Shown: positions 3,574-18,190 of the stretch, piece after piece
How positions within the stretch are numbered: the first letter of the stretch is position 1
Layout: each line of letters begins with the position of its first letter
DNA from: a virus
IMG/VR virus record: IMGVR_UViG_3300018415_000032
Location: 1 to 26,417 of that record
Direction: 5' to 3' (one strand)
Length of the DNA stretch: 26,417 nt
Notes under the pieces: generated by a model
The model's database searches: none
What the model was told of the DNA's origin: nothing
The model's input: only the letters and a program-made list of their open reading frames with translations
Made by a program: the position numbers and the translations under genes

Positions 3574-3581
3574 TATTTATT
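3574..3581 (-). promoter_or_regulatory. AATAAATA box before the 729-residue fibre gene
   Basis: Minus-strand AATAAATA spans the stop codon of the upstream gene, 9-16 bases before the ATG at 3565. This is close for a promoter -10 element unless the transcript is nearly leaderless, so a translation-enhancer role is equally possible. Confidence 0.25.
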
Positions 3582-3960
3582 TCGTATGAAGAAGATCCAT
3601 AAATTTATCAAAGGATAAAAGTAATACTTTTTTCTTCTTCTTTTTCTTTTTTCCTTCTGGTGCATCTCCGCTACCAACCTTTTGTGTTGCAAAAGAATTA
3701 GCAGAGCCAGGATTACCAGGTAATGAAACATCACCCATGCCCTGTACATTCATATTAGGGTTAAGACTAGCTGCTGCTTCCTCCTCTACTTTATCAGGTA
3801 ATCCTTTTTCATCCGTATAAGCAAAATCCTCTAAGTCCTTTAAAGGTAATTTTGCTAAGTCTTTTATTTCATCAGAAGCATCTGCTGCTTTTAGTTCGCC
3901 CTTTTTATATTGAAGGGCTAAGGCAAACAATCTCCTTTGTGCTTTACTCTTCGCTGGCAT
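3577..3960 (-). CDS. Small lysine-rich protein with DUF3008-like N-terminus
   Basis: 127 residues. The start MPAKSKAQRRLFALALQYKKG resembles the short DUF3008-type N-terminus found in many phage and bacterial small proteins (family recalled, function unknown). Residues 30-62 are acidic and helical. A flexible Gly/Pro/Asn region follows (about 66-103), then eight consecutive lysines at 104-111, then a hydrophobic tail LLLSFDKFMDLLHTK. The tail's SFDKFMDLL resembles the SFSKFVNE motif inside the acidic protein encoded at 9562-11034. The ATG lies inside the end of the preceding nucleotidyltransferase gene (17-base overlap), implying translational coupling. The lysine run could bind DNA in the head, but that is speculation. 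Confidence 0.75.
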   Translation of the reverse strand: MPAKSKAQRRLFALALQYKKGELKAADASDEIKDLAKLPLKDLEDFAYTDEKGLPDKVEEEAAASLNPNMNVQGMGDVSLPGNPGSANSFATQKVGSGDAPEGKKKKKKKKVLLLSFDKFMDLLHTK

Positions 3961-4882
3961 TATACTCGTTTAGTGATTTTAAATTTTTCATTTCTTTGGA
4001 TTCCTTTACAGGCTGGAGTATGTCTTGTAATGTTCTATAAAAACTATGTATACTCTTAGGTGTCATTTTCTTAAATGTCTTTTCATCATCTACCTTAAGA
4101 GCATTACGGACTTTAGATGCTGATATGTTATCATCAGTTCTAAAAATTTCATATCCTGTAAATTCAGGATCTACACCTAATTCTTGGCGGTATCTATCTT
4201 TATTAATCATAGAATCATATGCCTTCTTTCGGTCAGTACCATAGCCCCACATCACTGGTTCATATGTAGGTCTCGCAGCAGCAAAGAGAGTATCAATAGC
4301 GCCGTTAGGAACTACAATTGCAGTTTCCAAAAAAGGGTATTGTTTTGCCATCTTAGCAAACATAGCTTGTTGTAATGATTCATCAAATGGTCTTTTCTCT
4401 GGATCAGGATTTTTACCTCTTACTAAAAATACGACTACAGGTAATCCGTTCTCCTTATACATTTTTTCAAAGACCTTAACATGCCCTAATGTAAAAGGCT
4501 GGAATCTTCCTACAAACATATTAACCTTTTTCATACCTGGCTTTTTATGTGGTACTTTTAATGCTTCATTAATAGGGGCAGTAGCAGTTCTTACTCTTTG
4601 CCCATAAGGTGATAATGAGTATCTCTTAACACCAGTTTCATCTTCACTAATATTAAATAATCCTAAGTTTCTTTTAAGCCATCTCTTATGAGCTTTAATT
4701 TCTGCAAGAATTGTATTAACCTCATCCTCAGTTAAATGGCCATCAGCAACAGCATCTAAAATAGCATTACGAACTTTTGCCGCGGTAGATACATTTTTAG
4801 CAGGATGTTTCTCTGTATACCTTCTCTTAACCGTTACTCTCTTTTCGGTTATAAATTCATGTATGTTTTTTAGGTTATTCAT
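3944..4882 (-). CDS. HxGH-type nucleotidyltransferase (NadM/NadR-like domain) with N-terminal extension
   Basis: 312 residues. The core at about 117-270 carries the cytidylyltransferase-like signature: GRFQPFTLGH at 125-134 (the (H/T)xGH nucleotide-binding site), GYGTDR at 213-218 and ISASKVR at 253-259, a form of ISxTxxR. The GRFQP-type start is typical of NMN adenylyltransferases (NadM, NadR) and relatives, which transfer AMP from ATP to a mononucleotide; the substrate here cannot be fixed from sequence. Residues 1-115 are a basic helical extension beginning MNNLKNIHEFITEK, which resembles a T4-type capsid-targeting peptide. A similar stretch, MKNLKSLNEYNAS, sits at the C-terminus (298-310). 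An (I)-N-E site at 104-106 lies just before the catalytic domain. The ATG at 4880-4882 follows the preceding stop by 12 bases. Confidence 0.8.
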   Translation of the reverse strand: MNNLKNIHEFITEKRVTVKRRYTEKHPAKNVSTAAKVRNAILDAVADGHLTEDEVNTILAEIKAHKRWLKRNLGLFNISEDETGVKRYSLSPYGQRVRTATAPINEALKVPHKKPGMKKVNMFVGRFQPFTLGHVKVFEKMYKENGLPVVVFLVRGKNPDPEKRPFDESLQQAMFAKMAKQYPFLETAIVVPNGAIDTLFAAARPTYEPVMWGYGTDRKKAYDSMINKDRYRQELGVDPEFTGYEIFRTDDNISASKVRNALKVDDEKTFKKMTPKSIHSFYRTLQDILQPVKESKEMKNLKSLNEYNASEE

Positions 4883-8255: not shown

Positions 8256-8284
8256 GTAGATAAGTGTAGATATCTGTTATCTAC
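8256..8284 (-). other. Inverted repeat at the stop codon of the 423-residue gene
   Basis: GTAGATAA at 8256-8263 is the exact reverse complement of TTATCTAC at 8277-8284, with a 13-base loop. One arm contains the stop codon. No T-run follows on the minus strand, so it may protect a 3' end or mark processing rather than terminate. Confidence 0.4.
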
Positions 8285-9548
8285 CGTATTTAATAATACC
8301 TAATAATTGATTGAGTGGTGCAAAAGCCCCAGTTAATTTGTAAAGTTTTCCATTATATCTAAAAACAATACCTTCGCTAGGATAGATAGAATCAAGACCT
8401 CCTATTCTATCAAGCTTGGCTAATTGATCCTCTACCTTTTTAATTTGATTAACCCCGCCACCTTTTTTAATTTTTGTAGTTTCAGTATCAAGATAGGCTC
8501 TTAATCTTTGAGCTTCATCAGACGGGTTTGCCGCAACAAAATTACTTGCATTCCTAATAATAGTAGAGCCAAGCTCCAGGAATAAATCTTCAAAAGGTCT
8601 AATGTTTTCTTTATACTTTTTCTTAACATCTTCCTTATCATACTTTTTAACTAATGCAGCTTCTTCCTTTCCAATCTGTTTAGCAAGAGATCTCATATTT
8701 AATGTTTTCTTGTCGCCATAAGCCCATCTTCGTAAAAGTCCTTCTTTAACGTCCTGTGAAAGATTAGGAAAGTCTGCATCAATTAATTCCCTCCACCACA
8801 TTTCATGGTAACGAGAAACCTCATCACCATCATTCAGGCCATATCTTCTCTGTAAAGCAATAATCTTATCTTCAAACTTTTTCTTATTATTGCTAAAATC
8901 AACATCTTTTTGTAATTGAAGTATTCTAGGTGGAATAATCTTAAACGTTTTACCTACGTTTGATTTTACTTTGGCTAAGATTTGTGGAATTTCTTTAGCA
9001 GGTCTACTATCTGTATCTAAAATATTTCCATCCCCGTCCGTTTTTGTAATATTATGAAATTGAATAACATCAGTATCATAGTTAATTACATTAGGATTTT
9101 TAGAATAGATAAGCTCCATGTTCATGAAGTTCTTACCATCATTAAATATTTCAGCTTGCTTAGAAGAAGGTAACTTAGATAAAAGGTTAGCCAAATCTTT
9201 TGCAGCAAAAACAAAAGTGTCTCTAACACCAGGAACATCATGAGCTTCAAACTTTGAAACAAATTGATTTAATGACATAGGATCTTTAGTATCACCAGTA
9301 TTTCTAGCAAACATAACCTTTCCATCCTTCATTGTAACAAAAAGATTTTGGCCGTCTGTTTTTTCAATAGGCTCTTCTTCAAAGTTTAACTCGCCACGAA
9401 GGCCTGCATCAACAATTTTCTTAAAGTCACCGAAGGTTAAACCCTTGTCATCGTAAGGGTGGCTCATGTGACCGGCGGCACCGCCTTCAAAAAGAAATGG
9501 CTGGCTTTTGTCGGCCAGCCATTCTTCGAACAATTTTATATGTTTCAT
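8277..9548 (-). CDS. Ligase-superfamily nucleotidyltransferase with capsid-targeting-like N-terminus
   Basis: 423 residues from the ATG at 9546-9548. Conserved covalent nucleotidyltransferase motifs are visible: motif I EKTDGQN at 62-68 (lysine K63), a motif III-like MELIY at 144-148, motif IV SEGIVFRY at 391-398 and motif V KLYKLTG at 401-407. Members of this superfamily (DNA and RNA ligases, capping enzymes) attach a nucleotide to the motif I lysine. The segment GGAAGHMSHPYDD at 22-34 just before motif I looks like the signature of a phage subfamily; the real substrate is unknown. A 30-codon upstream extension is open, but it overlaps the previous gene and would hide the MKHIKLFEEWL start, which matches the targeting-like peptides of neighbours; the shorter start is therefore preferred. 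A roughly 180-residue charged helical insert separates motifs III and IV. Confidence 0.8.
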   Translation of the reverse strand: MKHIKLFEEWLADKSQPFLFEGGAAGHMSHPYDDKGLTFGDFKKIVDAGLRGELNFEEEPIEKTDGQNLFVTMKDGKVMFARNTGDTKDPMSLNQFVSKFEAHDVPGVRDTFVFAAKDLANLLSKLPSSKQAEIFNDGKNFMNMELIYSKNPNVINYDTDVIQFHNITKTDGDGNILDTDSRPAKEIPQILAKVKSNVGKTFKIIPPRILQLQKDVDFSNNKKKFEDKIIALQRRYGLNDGDEVSRYHEMWWRELIDADFPNLSQDVKEGLLRRWAYGDKKTLNMRSLAKQIGKEEAALVKKYDKEDVKKKYKENIRPFEDLFLELGSTIIRNASNFVAANPSDEAQRLRAYLDTETTKIKKGGGVNQIKKVEDQLAKLDRIGGLDSIYPSEGIVFRYNGKLYKLTGAFAPLNQLLGIIKYGR

Positions 9549-9561
9549 GGTTAGTTTTTTA

Positions 9562-11034
9562 TTATGATCCCATTGTAGATTGTAAAGCTCCAACCATTGC
9601 ACCATAATCTCCACTATACTTAGAAAGTAAACCGTCAATTACTTCGGTTGCTTTAGCTTCATCAAAATCTTCACCATGAGCATCTTTTAAGATTGCAGTT
9701 GCATATTCTTTAAACTCACCGTCATTTTTGATTTCCTTTTCGGAAACTTTTGCTTCTTCAACAGCTTCATCTTCTTCGGCTTCAACTTCTTCTTCTTCCT
9801 TTACTACAACAGTACCTTGTACATCAGCTTCGTCCTTTGCAGTTTCTGGTGCAGTTGTAATGTTTTGATCTTTAGTAACTAATTCTTCACCTTTAGATGC
9901 AGGCTCCTCTTTAGGTTTACCCATATCCATAATATCACCAGCAATACCAGCGGCAGTTTCAGAACCATCACCTTTTTCTGCAGGAATAGCAATACCGTCA
10001 GCGCCTACTTCTTCATCGGCAACTTCATCACCTTCAACTTTAGTAATTACTTCGCCTACTGCTTCTTCTACAGCATCTTCATCTTCCTCAACTTCTTCAT
10101 CTTCTTCAGCATCGTATGCTTCATTTACAAATTTAGAGAAAGACATAATTCTTGATTCTTCTTTCTTGTGATGCATATCTTCATCATCATCTTCTTCTTC
10201 TTTGTCGTATTTAACATCTTTCTTAAGAGCATCAATTTCAGCATCATCAGATTTAACAGCGCCTGCATAGTGATCTTCTTTTTCCTTATCATCTTCATGA
10301 TCCACTTTAACATCGCCCTTATCTTCTAACTCATCACCTTTCTTTTCATCTTCTTCACCTTCTTCTTCATCATCTTCAGCAAGAGGTTTAGCAGATGCAG
10401 CTACAGGAACAGCATAATCTTCAGGTTCCTCATCATCATCATGATACTTAACATTCTTGTTAACTGTGATTTCCTTTTCTTTAATGAAATCTTCAAATGC
10501 CATGATTCTTTTCTTAGCGGCAGGTTCAACCTCTTCACCAGATTCTTCATCATCACCTTCAGCAGGAACTTCCGCAGTAATTGCAGGATCATCAGAAACC
10601 TTTTCACCAGCCTTATCTTCAATATCTTTAGGCTCACCCATTGCTTTTACTTCATCCTCGATATCTTCGGCTTTATCTTCCTCAACATCGTCAGTTTCAG
10701 CAACTTCACCAGCGGCACTCATTTCTTCATCTTCTTCTTTTTCGCCTTCTTCGCCTTCTAAAGATCTAGGCTCTCCCTTTTTCTTTATTTCATCCTCGAT
10801 ATCTTCAGCCCTATCTTCTTCAATTTCATCTTCTGAAATATCTTGTTTTGGAGTGAAGTCCTTTAATAATGCTTCTAATTTAGATAAAAGATTTTTTTCT
10901 TTCTTTAATTCTTCAACGCTTTCATAACCCATCTTTTTAACAAGATCCATTACGGCGTCATGATTAGCGGTTGCAGATTCGTTTACAGAATCAGTAGCGG
11001 TGGCCATCATTGAAAACTTTTTGATTGGTTTCAT
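9562..11034 (-). CDS. Highly acidic repeat protein, candidate internal head/prohead core precursor
   Basis: 490 residues, dominated by Glu and Asp between residues 65 and 430. A segment of 17 residues (AEDIEDE...GEP, 74-90) is repeated at 120-136. Two near-identical islands interrupt the acidic sequence: RIMAFEDFIKEKE at 176-188 and RIMSFSKFVNEAYD at 295-308. Each is followed by or near a VKY plus acidic stretch (VKYHDDDEE at 195-203; VKYDKEEE at 274-281). Both islands resemble the targeting-like N-termini of neighbouring proteins and end in a (I/V)-x-E site. The last 65 residues are less charged and probably folded. T4 scaffold and core proteins gp22 and gp67 are cut by the prohead protease into acidic internal peptides, so this may be a functional analogue; that is inference. 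Starts at the ATG 11032-11034, 63 bases after uvsW. Confidence 0.75.
   Translation of the reverse strand: MKPIKKFSMMATATDSVNESATANHDAVMDLVKKMGYESVEELKKEKNLLSKLEALLKDFTPKQDISEDEIEEDRAEDIEDEIKKKGEPRSLEGEEGEKEEDEEMSAAGEVAETDDVEEDKAEDIEDEVKAMGEPKDIEDKAGEKVSDDPAITAEVPAEGDDEESGEEVEPAAKKRIMAFEDFIKEKEITVNKNVKYHDDDEEPEDYAVPVAASAKPLAEDDEEEGEEDEKKGDELEDKGDVKVDHEDDKEKEDHYAGAVKSDDAEIDALKKDVKYDKEEEDDDEDMHHKKEESRIMSFSKFVNEAYDAEEDEEVEEDEDAVEEAVGEVITKVEGDEVADEEVGADGIAIPAEKGDGSETAAGIAGDIMDMGKPKEEPASKGEELVTKDQNITTAPETAKDEADVQGTVVVKEEEEVEAEEDEAVEEAKVSEKEIKNDGEFKEYATAILKDAHGEDFDEAKATEVIDGLLSKYSGDYGAMVGALQSTMGS
10111..10152 (-). repeat. Second internal RIM-x-F-x-x-F-(I/V)-x-E island
   Basis: Codes for RIMSFSKFVNEAYD, residues 295-308 of the acidic protein. 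It matches the island at 10471-10509 in R-I-M, the two phenylalanines and the terminal Glu. Confidence 0.7.
10471..10509 (-). repeat. First internal RIM-x-F-x-x-F-(I/V)-x-E island
   Basis: Codes for RIMAFEDFIKEKE, residues 176-188 of the acidic protein. It resembles the N-terminal targeting-like peptides of the genes starting at 4882, 13264 and 17613. Confidence 0.7.
10627..10677 (-). repeat. AEDIEDE-GEP acidic repeat, copy 2
   Basis: Residues 120-136 of the acidic protein (DKAEDIEDEVKAMGEPK). It differs from copy 1 at only a few positions, consistent with tandem duplication of about 138 bases. Confidence 0.7.
10765..10815 (-). repeat. AEDIEDE-GEP acidic repeat, copy 1
   Basis: Residues 74-90 of the acidic protein (DRAEDIEDEIKKKGEPR); paired with the copy at 10627-10677. 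Confidence 0.7.
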
Positions 11035-12600: not shown

Positions 12601-13049
12601 TAAAATTCCTTATCGTCTAGATTTATACGGTTTCTAATTGCAAATGCCATATTATCTAATGTCTTAATACATTCATAATAATAATCAATATGAGATTGCA
12701 ACATGTCTATTTGTGTTTTTAATGAACTCAAATCAGCTTTTATAAACTGGTTCTTTTCGCCGTTAGTTAACTTAACATCATAATTAATAGAGTACTCCCG
12801 ATATTGTTGCTTATAATACCGATCCCATGTAGCATTCCTTTTATATATCGTAGTTTTAAAATCAGTAACTTTATCTAAAAGAATTTGCCTATATGATAAC
12901 ATTCTAACTTGACATTCTGCGAGTTCATTCATGTTTTTGAGTTTAGAAACCAAATCCTTAATTTTAAGTTTCCAATCATCACGGTCTTTGGTTAACCGCT
13001 GTTCCAACTGTTCGTTGGCTTCTTTAATTTGTGTATCGTCAAATGCCAT
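12600..13049 (-). CDS. uvsY: UvsY-like recombination mediator
   Basis: 149 residues, similar in length to T4 UvsY (137). No catalytic motif is expected. The C-terminal half (DLSSLKTQIDMLQSHIDYYY, then KTLDNMAFAIRNRINL and a final phenylalanine) resembles the C-terminal region of T4 UvsY, where a helix ends in a FAIK-type segment. UvsY loads the UvsX recombinase onto gp32-covered single-stranded DNA. The gene lies directly upstream of uvsW with a 1-base stop/start overlap, the same neighbourhood as in T4, and within the gp32-primase group. The call rests on position, size and visible sequence resemblance; a profile search would settle it. No uvsX gene is in the window. Confidence 0.7.
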   Translation of the reverse strand: MAFDDTQIKEANEQLEQRLTKDRDDWKLKIKDLVSKLKNMNELAECQVRMLSYRQILLDKVTDFKTTIYKRNATWDRYYKQQYREYSINYDVKLTNGEKNQFIKADLSSLKTQIDMLQSHIDYYYECIKTLDNMAFAIRNRINLDDKEF

Positions 13050-13264
13050 TAAAATATACCTTTATCATTATTAGTTTTCTTGTAGTTTTTTATTTTAGGT
13101 TGAAACTTTTTCTTAGGTACGGGTAAAGTAAAATTAGAATCAAATGAATTAACATTTATTTTACTGAACTTAGTAAATAGCTTTAACCTTTTCTTTGAGA
13201 TTTCAAAATCTTCATAAAAATCATCAAACTGCTCTGTCACAAAGTCATTGTAATTTTTTATCAT
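13049..13264 (-). CDS. Small basic protein with capsid-targeting-like N-terminus
   Basis: 71 residues, not recognised. It begins MIKNYNDFVTEQ, which fits the peptide M-x(4)-Y/F-x-x-F-(V/I)-T-E shared by several proteins here. After an acidic stretch (FDDFYEDFE, 13-21) the remainder is strongly basic and lysine-rich (KKKFQPKIKNYKKTNNDK at 52-69), like a nucleic-acid-binding tail. If cut after Glu11 the mature product would be about 60 residues and cationic, which suits a small DNA-associated internal head protein. It overlaps the primase stop by 4 bases and the uvsY-like start by 1 base, so it is part of the replication operon and could equally be a small replication accessory protein. Confidence 0.65.
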   Translation of the reverse strand: MIKNYNDFVTEQFDDFYEDFEISKKRLKLFTKFSKINVNSFDSNFTLPVPKKKFQPKIKNYKKTNNDKGIF

Positions 13265-16589: not shown

Positions 16590-17285
16590 TCACTTCCTTT
16601 CTTTATTTGCATTCAAAATAAAATACGCATCCACTAAATCATCTATAGGCTTAGGGATCTTTTCTGAAAAGTCTTTACCTTGACACCATTTCCACAATTT
16701 AGTATTTCTTAAATCCTTATCATTAAACACATCATTTTGAAATGCCTCTACCATATAGTGCTTATTTGCATTTCCTTTACCTGCCAACTTCTTAACGTGT
16801 GATGGTTGAAATACCGATATTTTTTCTACACTAAATGCATTCACAATTTCATTTCTTAAAAATGTGTTGTATTGTATAATATCAATAAATGAATTACCCT
16901 TAGAGCCATAGGAGAATCCTTCTAAGGCAATACGGTGAGATTCTGTACCGTATAATGTAATTAAGACGTTTATTATCAATTCAGCTATCGCTTTACCATC
17001 TGTCATTTTTTCCCGCTCTCTAGGTAAAAAGTCCTTGCTGATTACATGCCTATAATAAGGAAAGCCTAAAATAGTTTTATTGTCAATAAGTTCTTTATGG
17101 ACTTCGAATGCTTTAGGTACTTTACGGCCCTTTTCGCCCCAGACTCGGTTACCATAATTAAAGAAGGTCATAAACTTGTATTTACCGTCATGACCCTGTG
17201 TACATAACCCTGGGCTATTTAGAGAAAAATCAATACCTGTGTAAATCACTAAGAAAGGATTATAGTCTTTTACCAAGAACTGCAC
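16590..17285 (-). CDS. RuvC-like (RNase H-fold) nuclease
   Basis: 231 residues. Acidic residues fit the RuvC/RNase H-fold pattern: D19 in the first strand (YTGIDFSLNSPG), E122 in IALEGFSYGSKG, and the C-terminal pair in PIDDLVDAYF (D215 or D216, with D219). The segment VFQPSHVKKLAGKGNANKHYM at about 158-178 matches the region of RuvC-like resolvases that carries a lysine and the KxxM helix. Such enzymes cut Holliday junctions or other branched DNA, here presumably resolving concatemers before packaging, the job done by endonuclease VII in T4. The ATG at 17285 makes a 26-base overlap with the upstream gene; a later start before the first strand is possible but no better codon is obvious. The fold call is firm, the exact substrate inferred. 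Confidence 0.8.
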   Translation of the reverse strand: MQFLVKDYNPFLVIYTGIDFSLNSPGLCTQGHDGKYKFMTFFNYGNRVWGEKGRKVPKAFEVHKELIDNKTILGFPYYRHVISKDFLPREREKMTDGKAIAELIINVLITLYGTESHRIALEGFSYGSKGNSFIDIIQYNTFLRNEIVNAFSVEKISVFQPSHVKKLAGKGNANKHYMVEAFQNDVFNDKDLRNTKLWKWCQGKDFSEKIPKPIDDLVDAYFILNANKERK

Positions 17286-17613
17286 CTAATGCAGCACCTA
17301 CTAATCGACTGGTTAATAAATCATAAAGAGCTCCTTTTTGAATTCCTAAAACTTTAGCAATTGCTTTACCTACGGCTTTACCTAAAGCAAAACCAGTAAG
17401 ACCTCCTAAAACAGATCCTAAAATACCTTCATTGACAACTTCTTCCATCACTTCTTCTAGATCTCTACCATTTGCATGCTCTTCCATAATACGATCAACT
17501 GCAGAGTTAATTGCAGCTTCCTGTTCCTCGGTTAAGTTTGATTCATTTAATAAGTTTTGAATATCAATAGAATCGTTACGGTTTTCGGTAAGATAGTCTT
17601 TAAAAGTTTTCAT
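17260..17613 (-). CDS. Glycine-zipper protein with capsid-targeting-like N-terminus
   Basis: 117 residues, family not recognised. It opens MKTFKDYLTEN, very like the T4 internal-protein targeting peptide, with an (L)-T-E site at 8-10. Residues 11-62 are acidic and helical, ending in VVNE at 59-62, a second (V)-x-E site. The remaining 55 residues are hydrophobic, glycine-rich and cationic: GILGSVLGGLTGFALGKAVG and, after a short link, LVGAALGAVLGKRL. GxxxG spacing of this kind (glycine zipper) is typical of membrane-inserting peptides. The simplest reading is a packaged protein that releases a membrane-active peptide, but a holin-like or structural role is possible. It lies between the tail-tube-like gene (22-base gap) and the RuvC-like gene. 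Confidence 0.7.
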   Translation of the reverse strand: MKTFKDYLTENRNDSIDIQNLLNESNLTEEQEAAINSAVDRIMEEHANGRDLEEVMEEVVNEGILGSVLGGLTGFALGKAVGKAIAKVLGIQKGALYDLLTSRLVGAALGAVLGKRL

Positions 17614-17627
17614 TTCTTTTGTATTTG

Positions 17628-17636
17628 TTTATATAT
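17628..17636 (-). promoter_or_regulatory. ATATATAAA box before the glycine-zipper gene
   Basis: Minus-strand TAATATATAAACAA, 15-23 bases upstream of the ATG at 17613 and overlapping the stop codon of the preceding gene. It is the same box as at 8133, 11062 and 15396. Confidence 0.4.
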
Positions 17637-18190
17637 TAGACCAGGTTAACCGCTATGTCCAGAATGTTATAAGTAAAATCAATATCAAAGGTTTGGAATT
17701 CAATTGTGTTACTTGAGAAGTTAAGATCCAACGCACTTACACCGTTCATAATCATATCCTTTAATTGAATCGTAACAAAAATATTACCTTCACCATCTAA
17801 CATTTGTAAACCAACACCTTCAGGCACAAATGGATTTTTACCACTTTGCTTATAATAATAATCAAAAAGTTCTACAGCCATCCAATAATTAACCCAGCCA
17901 TCAAATGCCTGCATTGTAATTGTTAAGCTTTTATCAAAAAGTTCTTGTTTAGGTAAGCTTGTTCTAAAATTTCTTGTATTGCCTGGAAAATCATTCTGTG
18001 AAACTGGATCAAAACTAGGTCCTGGTAAATTCATGGATTGAATTCCGTAATTAAAGTAATCTATAGGTTCTTTAATAAGCCCACCAGGAATTCTATTTAA
18101 ATAAGGTCTATACTTATCTGCTATTTCCTTAGGTATAAAGGTTCTAGGGAATTCAAATTTAAATTGGTTATTTCTTGCACTTAATATCAT
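17636..18190 (-). CDS. Tail-tube-fold protein (gp19/gp54-like)
   Basis: 184 residues. The C-terminal stretch SALDLNFSSNTIEFQTFDID followed by FTYN parallels the end of T4 tail tube protein gp19 (GELQLDWDSNNEIQTFEVTL). The central LTITMQAFDGWVNYW occupies the place of gp19's strand ending in DDWTVTVMND. The protein is therefore probably a member of the tail-tube fold family: the tube subunit itself or the tube initiator (gp48/gp54) at the baseplate. Two adjacent baseplate-type genes upstream favour an initiator, but length fits the tube subunit equally. The ATG overlaps the previous stop by 4 bases. No membrane or signal sequence is visible. Confidence 0.55.
   Translation of the reverse strand: MILSARNNQFKFEFPRTFIPKEIADKYRPYLNRIPGGLIKEPIDYFNYGIQSMNLPGPSFDPVSQNDFPGNTRNFRTSLPKQELFDKSLTITMQAFDGWVNYWMAVELFDYYYKQSGKNPFVPEGVGLQMLDGEGNIFVTIQLKDMIMNGVSALDLNFSSNTIEFQTFDIDFTYNILDIAVNLV

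Follow-up and report, generated by a model that had tools for sequence, protein, structure and literature searches.

The window, that is, the whole stretch of DNA analysed here (26,417 nucleotides), is a fragment from a virus record and carries a series of T4-like genes (gp54/tail-tube-like, gp32-like, primase-like, UvsW-like helicase, RuvC-like resolvase and GroES-like), which were named in part from PHROG matches and for the remainder from reading the sequences. The phage is T4-like and its host probably belongs to the Bacteroidota; related large aquatic Bacteroidota phages with T4-type head genes are known as "moraphages" (PMC12619734). One end of the window (positions 16-570) is a very repetitive low-complexity stretch with long overlapping open reading frames on both strands.

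Between the gp54-like and RuvC-like genes lies a reading frame for a 117-residue protein (Table 1), with LTE at residues 8-10, LNE at 22-24 and VNE at 60-62, after which 55 residues follow; its net charge is -10 over residues 25-62 and +6 over residues 63-117. A first-pass annotation had described LTE and VNE motifs, an acidic spacer and a 55-residue cationic zipper in this protein, and the reading frame and charges agree with that description.

Table 1. Positions in the window of the 117-residue protein gene, its parts, its neighbours and other proteins with CTS-like starts (↓ marks a cleavage position)
Feature	Coordinates	Strand	Basis or remark
CDS of the 117-residue CTS/glycine-zipper protein	17260..17613	-	stop codon included; ATG start; homologues
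T4 internal-protein-type capsid-targeting propeptide MKTFKDYLTENRNDSIDIQNLLNE, residues 1-24 (putative)	17542..17613	-	T4 N-terminus ranking
LTE, residues 8-10, first possible prohead-protease site	17584..17592	-	23/34 clusters
LNE, residues 22-24, best-supported prohead-protease site (LNE↓S)	17542..17550	-	
Acidic helical segment ending in VNE, residues 25-62	17428..17541	-	charge -10
VNE, residues 60-62, doubtful second cleavage site	17428..17436	-	P3 mostly Thr
Basic glycine-zipper domain, residues 63-117	17263..17427	-	period-4 small residues
ATATATAA, putative late promoter element	17629..17636	-	kept 5' of most homologues
Upstream neighbour, tail-tube/gp54-like protein	17636..18190	-	phrog_45 tail tube, E 1e-6
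Downstream neighbour, RuvC-like resolvase	16590..17285	-	phrog_159, E 2.5e-11; synteny
Nucleotidyltransferase-like protein (PF01467), CTS-like start ..IHEFITE	3944..4882	-	
Protein starting MKHIKLFEEWLADKSQPFLFE↓GG, CTS-like with LFE↓GG	8277..9548	-	homologue starts MKFLKSYEEFLNENLILEGG, MKLLSFDAFVNEMYQPVFEGG
71-residue protein, CTS-like start MIKNYNDFVTE	13049..13264	-	

Relatives and genomic setting

A scan of viral contigs returned 322 relatives of the protein, and further scans brought the full-length homologues to 109 distinct sequences, which form 34 clusters at 80% identity. The named relatives belong to LR756500.1, a 462-kb uncultured huge phage (49%), and to 15 Lak megaphages of Prevotella (about 40%), the latter without the MKTF-type start; the other homologues come from marine contigs. 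In every comparison that allowed an estimate of dS, dN was much smaller than dS for both halves of the gene, and the zipper half had the lower dN of the two; judged from sequence, the reading frame is a genuine gene under purifying selection.

Searches of Pfam, PHROGs, NCBIfam and PDB sequences gave no convincing named family. Weak matches to phrog_22557 and phrog_5453 were treated as compositional because the distant homologues do not share them, and the sole match in a scan of bacterial genomes, a TetR-family-like protein, was false. The fetched sequence contained no zipper paralogue, and the surroundings of the gp54-like gene in cultured Tenacibaculum and Chryseobacterium phages no homologue. 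In the part of the literature covered by our searches, neither this protein family nor the presence of T4-type tags in these phages was described.

Gene order around the locus (p459, p317, gp54-like, the 117-residue protein, RuvC-like, gp32, primase) is fixed in LR756500 and the marine contigs compared, with the tail-tube/gp54-like gene adjoining in every one. A comparison with the T4 GenBank record found the alt region next to T4 genes 48 and 54, on the opposite strand, a positional parallel that is only suggestive. Genes for a gp21-type protease and a gp23-type capsid protein are present in LR756500 and Lak-C1, and the protease also in several marine relatives; the protease gene is absent from the window, itself a fragment. 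In Lak-C1 (L082, 14488-16242) the protease extends at its C-terminus into a long acidic tail, and some 4.4 kb separate its gene from that of the Lak zipper protein.

Capsid-targeting tag and late-type promoter

When residues 2-11 were compared, ungapped, with the N-termini of the 75 T4 proteins in the GenBank record, the three internal proteins IpI, IpII and IpIII took the top three places (scores of 25, 24 and 24), and the fourth protein scored 16. A random ranking would place exactly these three on top about once in 67,000 times. The tag reads MKTFKDYLTE here and MKTFKEF.. or MKTYQEFIAE in T4, and the resemblance extends to an LxE/IxE site and to a small protein of late type, which bears out the targeting-like start proposed earlier. 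Past the tag the protein is dissimilar to IpI-III and carries a glycine zipper instead; a profile of the zipper matched no T4 protein, so homology is confined to the tag and we do not regard the protein as an IpI-III homologue over its full length.

The T4 gp21 protease cuts after L/I-x-E (PMC9026906). All 34 homologue clusters have [LIVM]xE[S/G/N/A/D] within residues 13-36, which in the window's protein is LNE↓S at 22-24, and in the alignment column 22 is Leu and column 24 Glu in 65 of 68 sequences each. This motif, which the first-pass annotation did not list, is the most conserved LxE site in the N-terminal part of the protein, and the N-arm site of the lineage's major capsid protein is likewise mainly LNE↓S, with LYE, LSE, VNE and ITE as variants. 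The LTE motif that had been proposed for the N-terminal cut is matched in 23 clusters and lost in the other 11, so the proposal of such a cut stands and its position moves to LNE. Because a tag of the T4 internal-protein type precedes the zipper domain, the protein is probably packaged; that it enters the head with the DNA and is cut after E24 seems to us quite likely.

Similar starts recur in these genomes. Occurrences of a CTS-like pattern in the first 28 residues exceed those in composition-preserving shuffles in the window (3 against 0.23), LR756500 (32 against 9.2), G013 (9 against 2.0) and G020 (6 against 0.6), counts that include the 117-residue family, come from mechanical gene calls and use a pattern drawn up after this protein and T4-type tags had been seen. 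The nucleotidyltransferase-like protein of the window has INE↓A directly before its catalytic domain and is possibly a packaged enzyme. The protein at 8277-9548 shows by eye a KxDG motif (EKTDG), as in ATP-dependent ligases, and a PDB sequence search with it gave no match. A strongly acidic protein of 490 residues (9562-11034, minus strand) has internal CTS-like repeats (RIMAFEDFIKE, RIMSFSKFVNEA) and ATATATAA upstream, and is a possible scaffold or packaged protein. The product of 3577-3960 (minus strand) has an N-terminus of the DUF3008 type (PF11450, E 9e-6); the sequence after it, SLNPNMNVQGMGDVSLPGNPG..GSGD, is very close to the mature N-arm of the lineage's major capsid protein. In LR756500.1 (L201-L224; for example 313382-317720 and 455031-455694), about 25 proteins start with MKYIKxYEEFLxE, some of them with leucine-rich-repeat-like sequence, which suggests large packaged cargo.

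The octamer ATATATAA lies close before the start of the gene and of most homologues examined, a few having near variants. What supports it as a promoter is where it stands in related genomes, and not enrichment in the window, where 8 copies compare with 5.3 expected. In G013 it is placed ahead of 26 genes in the sense orientation and 2 in the antisense, among them genes with N-terminal matches to the lineage's portal, protease and sheath proteins, and it precedes 6 of 9 CTS genes against 20 of 159 others (p 5e-4). This placement suggests that the gene is expressed late, alongside virion genes.

The glycine-zipper domain

The zipper reported earlier is genuine and keeps a four-residue register across 68 aligned sequences. 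Its register comprises thirteen positions, spaced by four, from 66 to 114; twelve of them (66, 70, 74, 78, 82, 86, 90, 94, 102, 106, 110 and 114) are occupied by Gly, Ala or Ser in 99-100% of the sequences, the exception being Asp at 98, and the small residues are concentrated in one phase of four (permutation p 5e-5). Pfam glycine-zipper domains share such regular small-residue helices, but the scores of the Pfam models (PF05433, PF13488 and PF13441) all fall under the curated cut-offs, the best at 22.0 against 24.2.

Two AlphaFold runs (pLDDT 55 and 60) gave low-confidence models with helices at 4-10, 18-23, 29-47, 52-61, 64-68, 73-88, 95-100 and 103-116, those at 29-47 and 52-61 falling in the acidic segment. 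Fold searches with these models against viral and PDB libraries were empty at E 0.001. Hydropathy and a crude insertion estimate gave no confident transmembrane segment in the zipper tail: the 19-residue hydropathy maximum is a moderate 1.41 and the insertion estimate is positive, that is, unfavourable. Residues 73-90 form an amphipathic helix with a lysine face (moment 0.40), and basic residues are conserved near 83, 87, 93 and 103.

Role in the virion and alternatives

Membrane action during DNA entry is our first-ranked, unproven function. Residues 1-24, as a T4-type propeptide, would place the protein in the prohead core, and the gp21-type prohead protease would cut them off at LNE↓S, behind Glu24. 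What is left, 93 residues with an acidic helical half joined to a basic zipper half, would remain in the head with the DNA and on infection exit through the tail; its zipper helices would then pack together within or on the inner membrane and make it easier for the DNA and the other packaged proteins to pass. The reality of the gene, its T4-type tag, the conservation of the site, the zipper register, the late-type promoter and the synteny all have their basis in sequence; that evidence reaches as far as packaging, and ejection and membrane action are speculative. We hold the chain as a whole tentatively, somewhat short of an even chance. That the zipper protein, packaged in the head and matured by the protease, leaves ahead of or with the DNA and itself opens the host inner membrane, as a dedicated DNA-entry factor of a type not known from T4, we consider rather unlikely.

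Phage tails of the contractile type and the T6SS are related machines. Known glycine zippers make channels in membranes or render inner membranes permeable, the T6SS effector Tde1 requires its GxxxG motif to cross the inner membrane and enter the target cytoplasm, and glycine zippers have been noted in some tape-measure proteins (PMC10240207). With Tde1 and the C-termini of those tape-measure proteins (PMC10240207) the protein described here shares the repeated GxxxG and a proposed action, making the inner membrane permeable while a contractile machine delivers its cargo. The likeness is one of motif and not of demonstrated homology, and the Tde1 zipper is N-terminal to a nuclease whereas here it belongs to a stand-alone, probably packaged protein. 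Against the chain as a whole stand the zipper without a clear transmembrane span, an AlphaFold pLDDT of 60 with no fold match, the Lak homologues with their different, non-MKTF start, and the position of a fixed core gene beside tail genes, which would suit a structural role too.

T4 internal proteins are highly variable, whereas this is a core gene, kept in a single place beside the gp54-like gene. Such fixed synteny and strong conservation favour the main rival to membrane action during entry, a prohead core component or membrane tether whose tag binds the core and whose zipper either holds the growing prohead to the inner membrane or just oligomerises within the core, with little or nothing injected. 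T4 proheads form on the inner membrane and detach at maturation after gp21 cleavage (PMC9026906), and a cut at E62-G63, if it occurs, would free the anchor. The gene lies outside the head gene cluster, however, and searches found no homologue of T4 core proteins, and we judge this role unlikely.

The first-pass annotation had proposed cuts at both LTE and VNE: these would release the last 55 residues as a pore former resembling a bacteriocin, which the acidic spacer could neutralise before maturation. E62-G63 is indeed invariant and N61 nearly so, P3 is Val or Ile in the window's own sublineage, VNE↓S is the capsid site of the relative L172, and the freed peptide would have a pI of 10.7. Across the 34 clusters, however, P3 of the VNE site is Thr in 20 (Val in 5, Ile and Met in 3 each, Ala in 2, Leu in 1). 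An aliphatic P3 is thus found in 12 clusters, against all 34 at the N-terminal site (Fisher p 3e-9, a guide and not a strict probability because clusters share ancestry, in a test whose N-terminal search took aliphatic P3 alone, at any position in a 24-residue stretch). Moreover, three genomes of the Thr-type lineages have LYE capsid sites. With LTE lost in 11 clusters and no Pfam bacteriocin match above threshold, the two-cut reading is quite improbable. Like class II bacteriocins (PF10439), the zipper sequence is cationic and glycine-rich and has GxxxG, but the one PF10439 match (E 0.47) is far under the cut-off, no double-glycine leader or immunity gene was noted, and the neighbours are phage tail and replication genes.

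A second cut at VNE is accordingly doubtful. The P3 contrast, the conserved columns 22 and 24 and the LYE capsid sites of the Thr-type genomes lead us to expect one cut, after E24, which would likely leave a mature product of 93 residues (25-117) and not a free 55-residue peptide. We expect E62-G63 to mark the start of the zipper fold, although a relaxed protease could conceivably cut VNE too in the window's own sublineage. If the second cut is absent, the idea that the spacer neutralises the peptide until cleavage loses its basis. By analogy with glycine zippers that make inner membranes permeable (PMC10240207), the protein might act as a pore or a bacteriocin and might assist DNA in crossing.

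The lysine face and the conserved basic residues would also suit a DNA-associated internal protein, in which the helix at 73-88 and the basic tail bind the genome, the acidic half tunes the binding and membrane contact is incidental, but DNA-binding proteins do not usually have a glycine zipper and the overall pI after the E24 cut is 4.9, which makes this decidedly improbable. A non-virion late membrane protein (a lysis accessory or superinfection-exclusion factor) would fit the small size, the glycine richness and the late-type promoter, but its IpI-III-like N-terminus would then have arisen by chance, against the top three T4 matches being exactly IpI-III, a protease site conserved in 34 of 34 clusters and other proteins with similar tags, and we regard it as very improbable.

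To our knowledge there is no settled account of how contractile-tailed T4-like phages bring their DNA across the inner membrane, and a conserved, probably packaged protein with a membrane-type helical zipper, in a phage group that is widespread in marine and gut settings, offers a concrete candidate for this step. Internal proteins of T4 were already known; what is new is a glycine-zipper domain on such a protein, and as a core gene. Many proteins of these large phages probably carry the T4 head-targeting tag, about 25 of them in the 462-kb genome, and packaged cargo may therefore be predictable from sequence.
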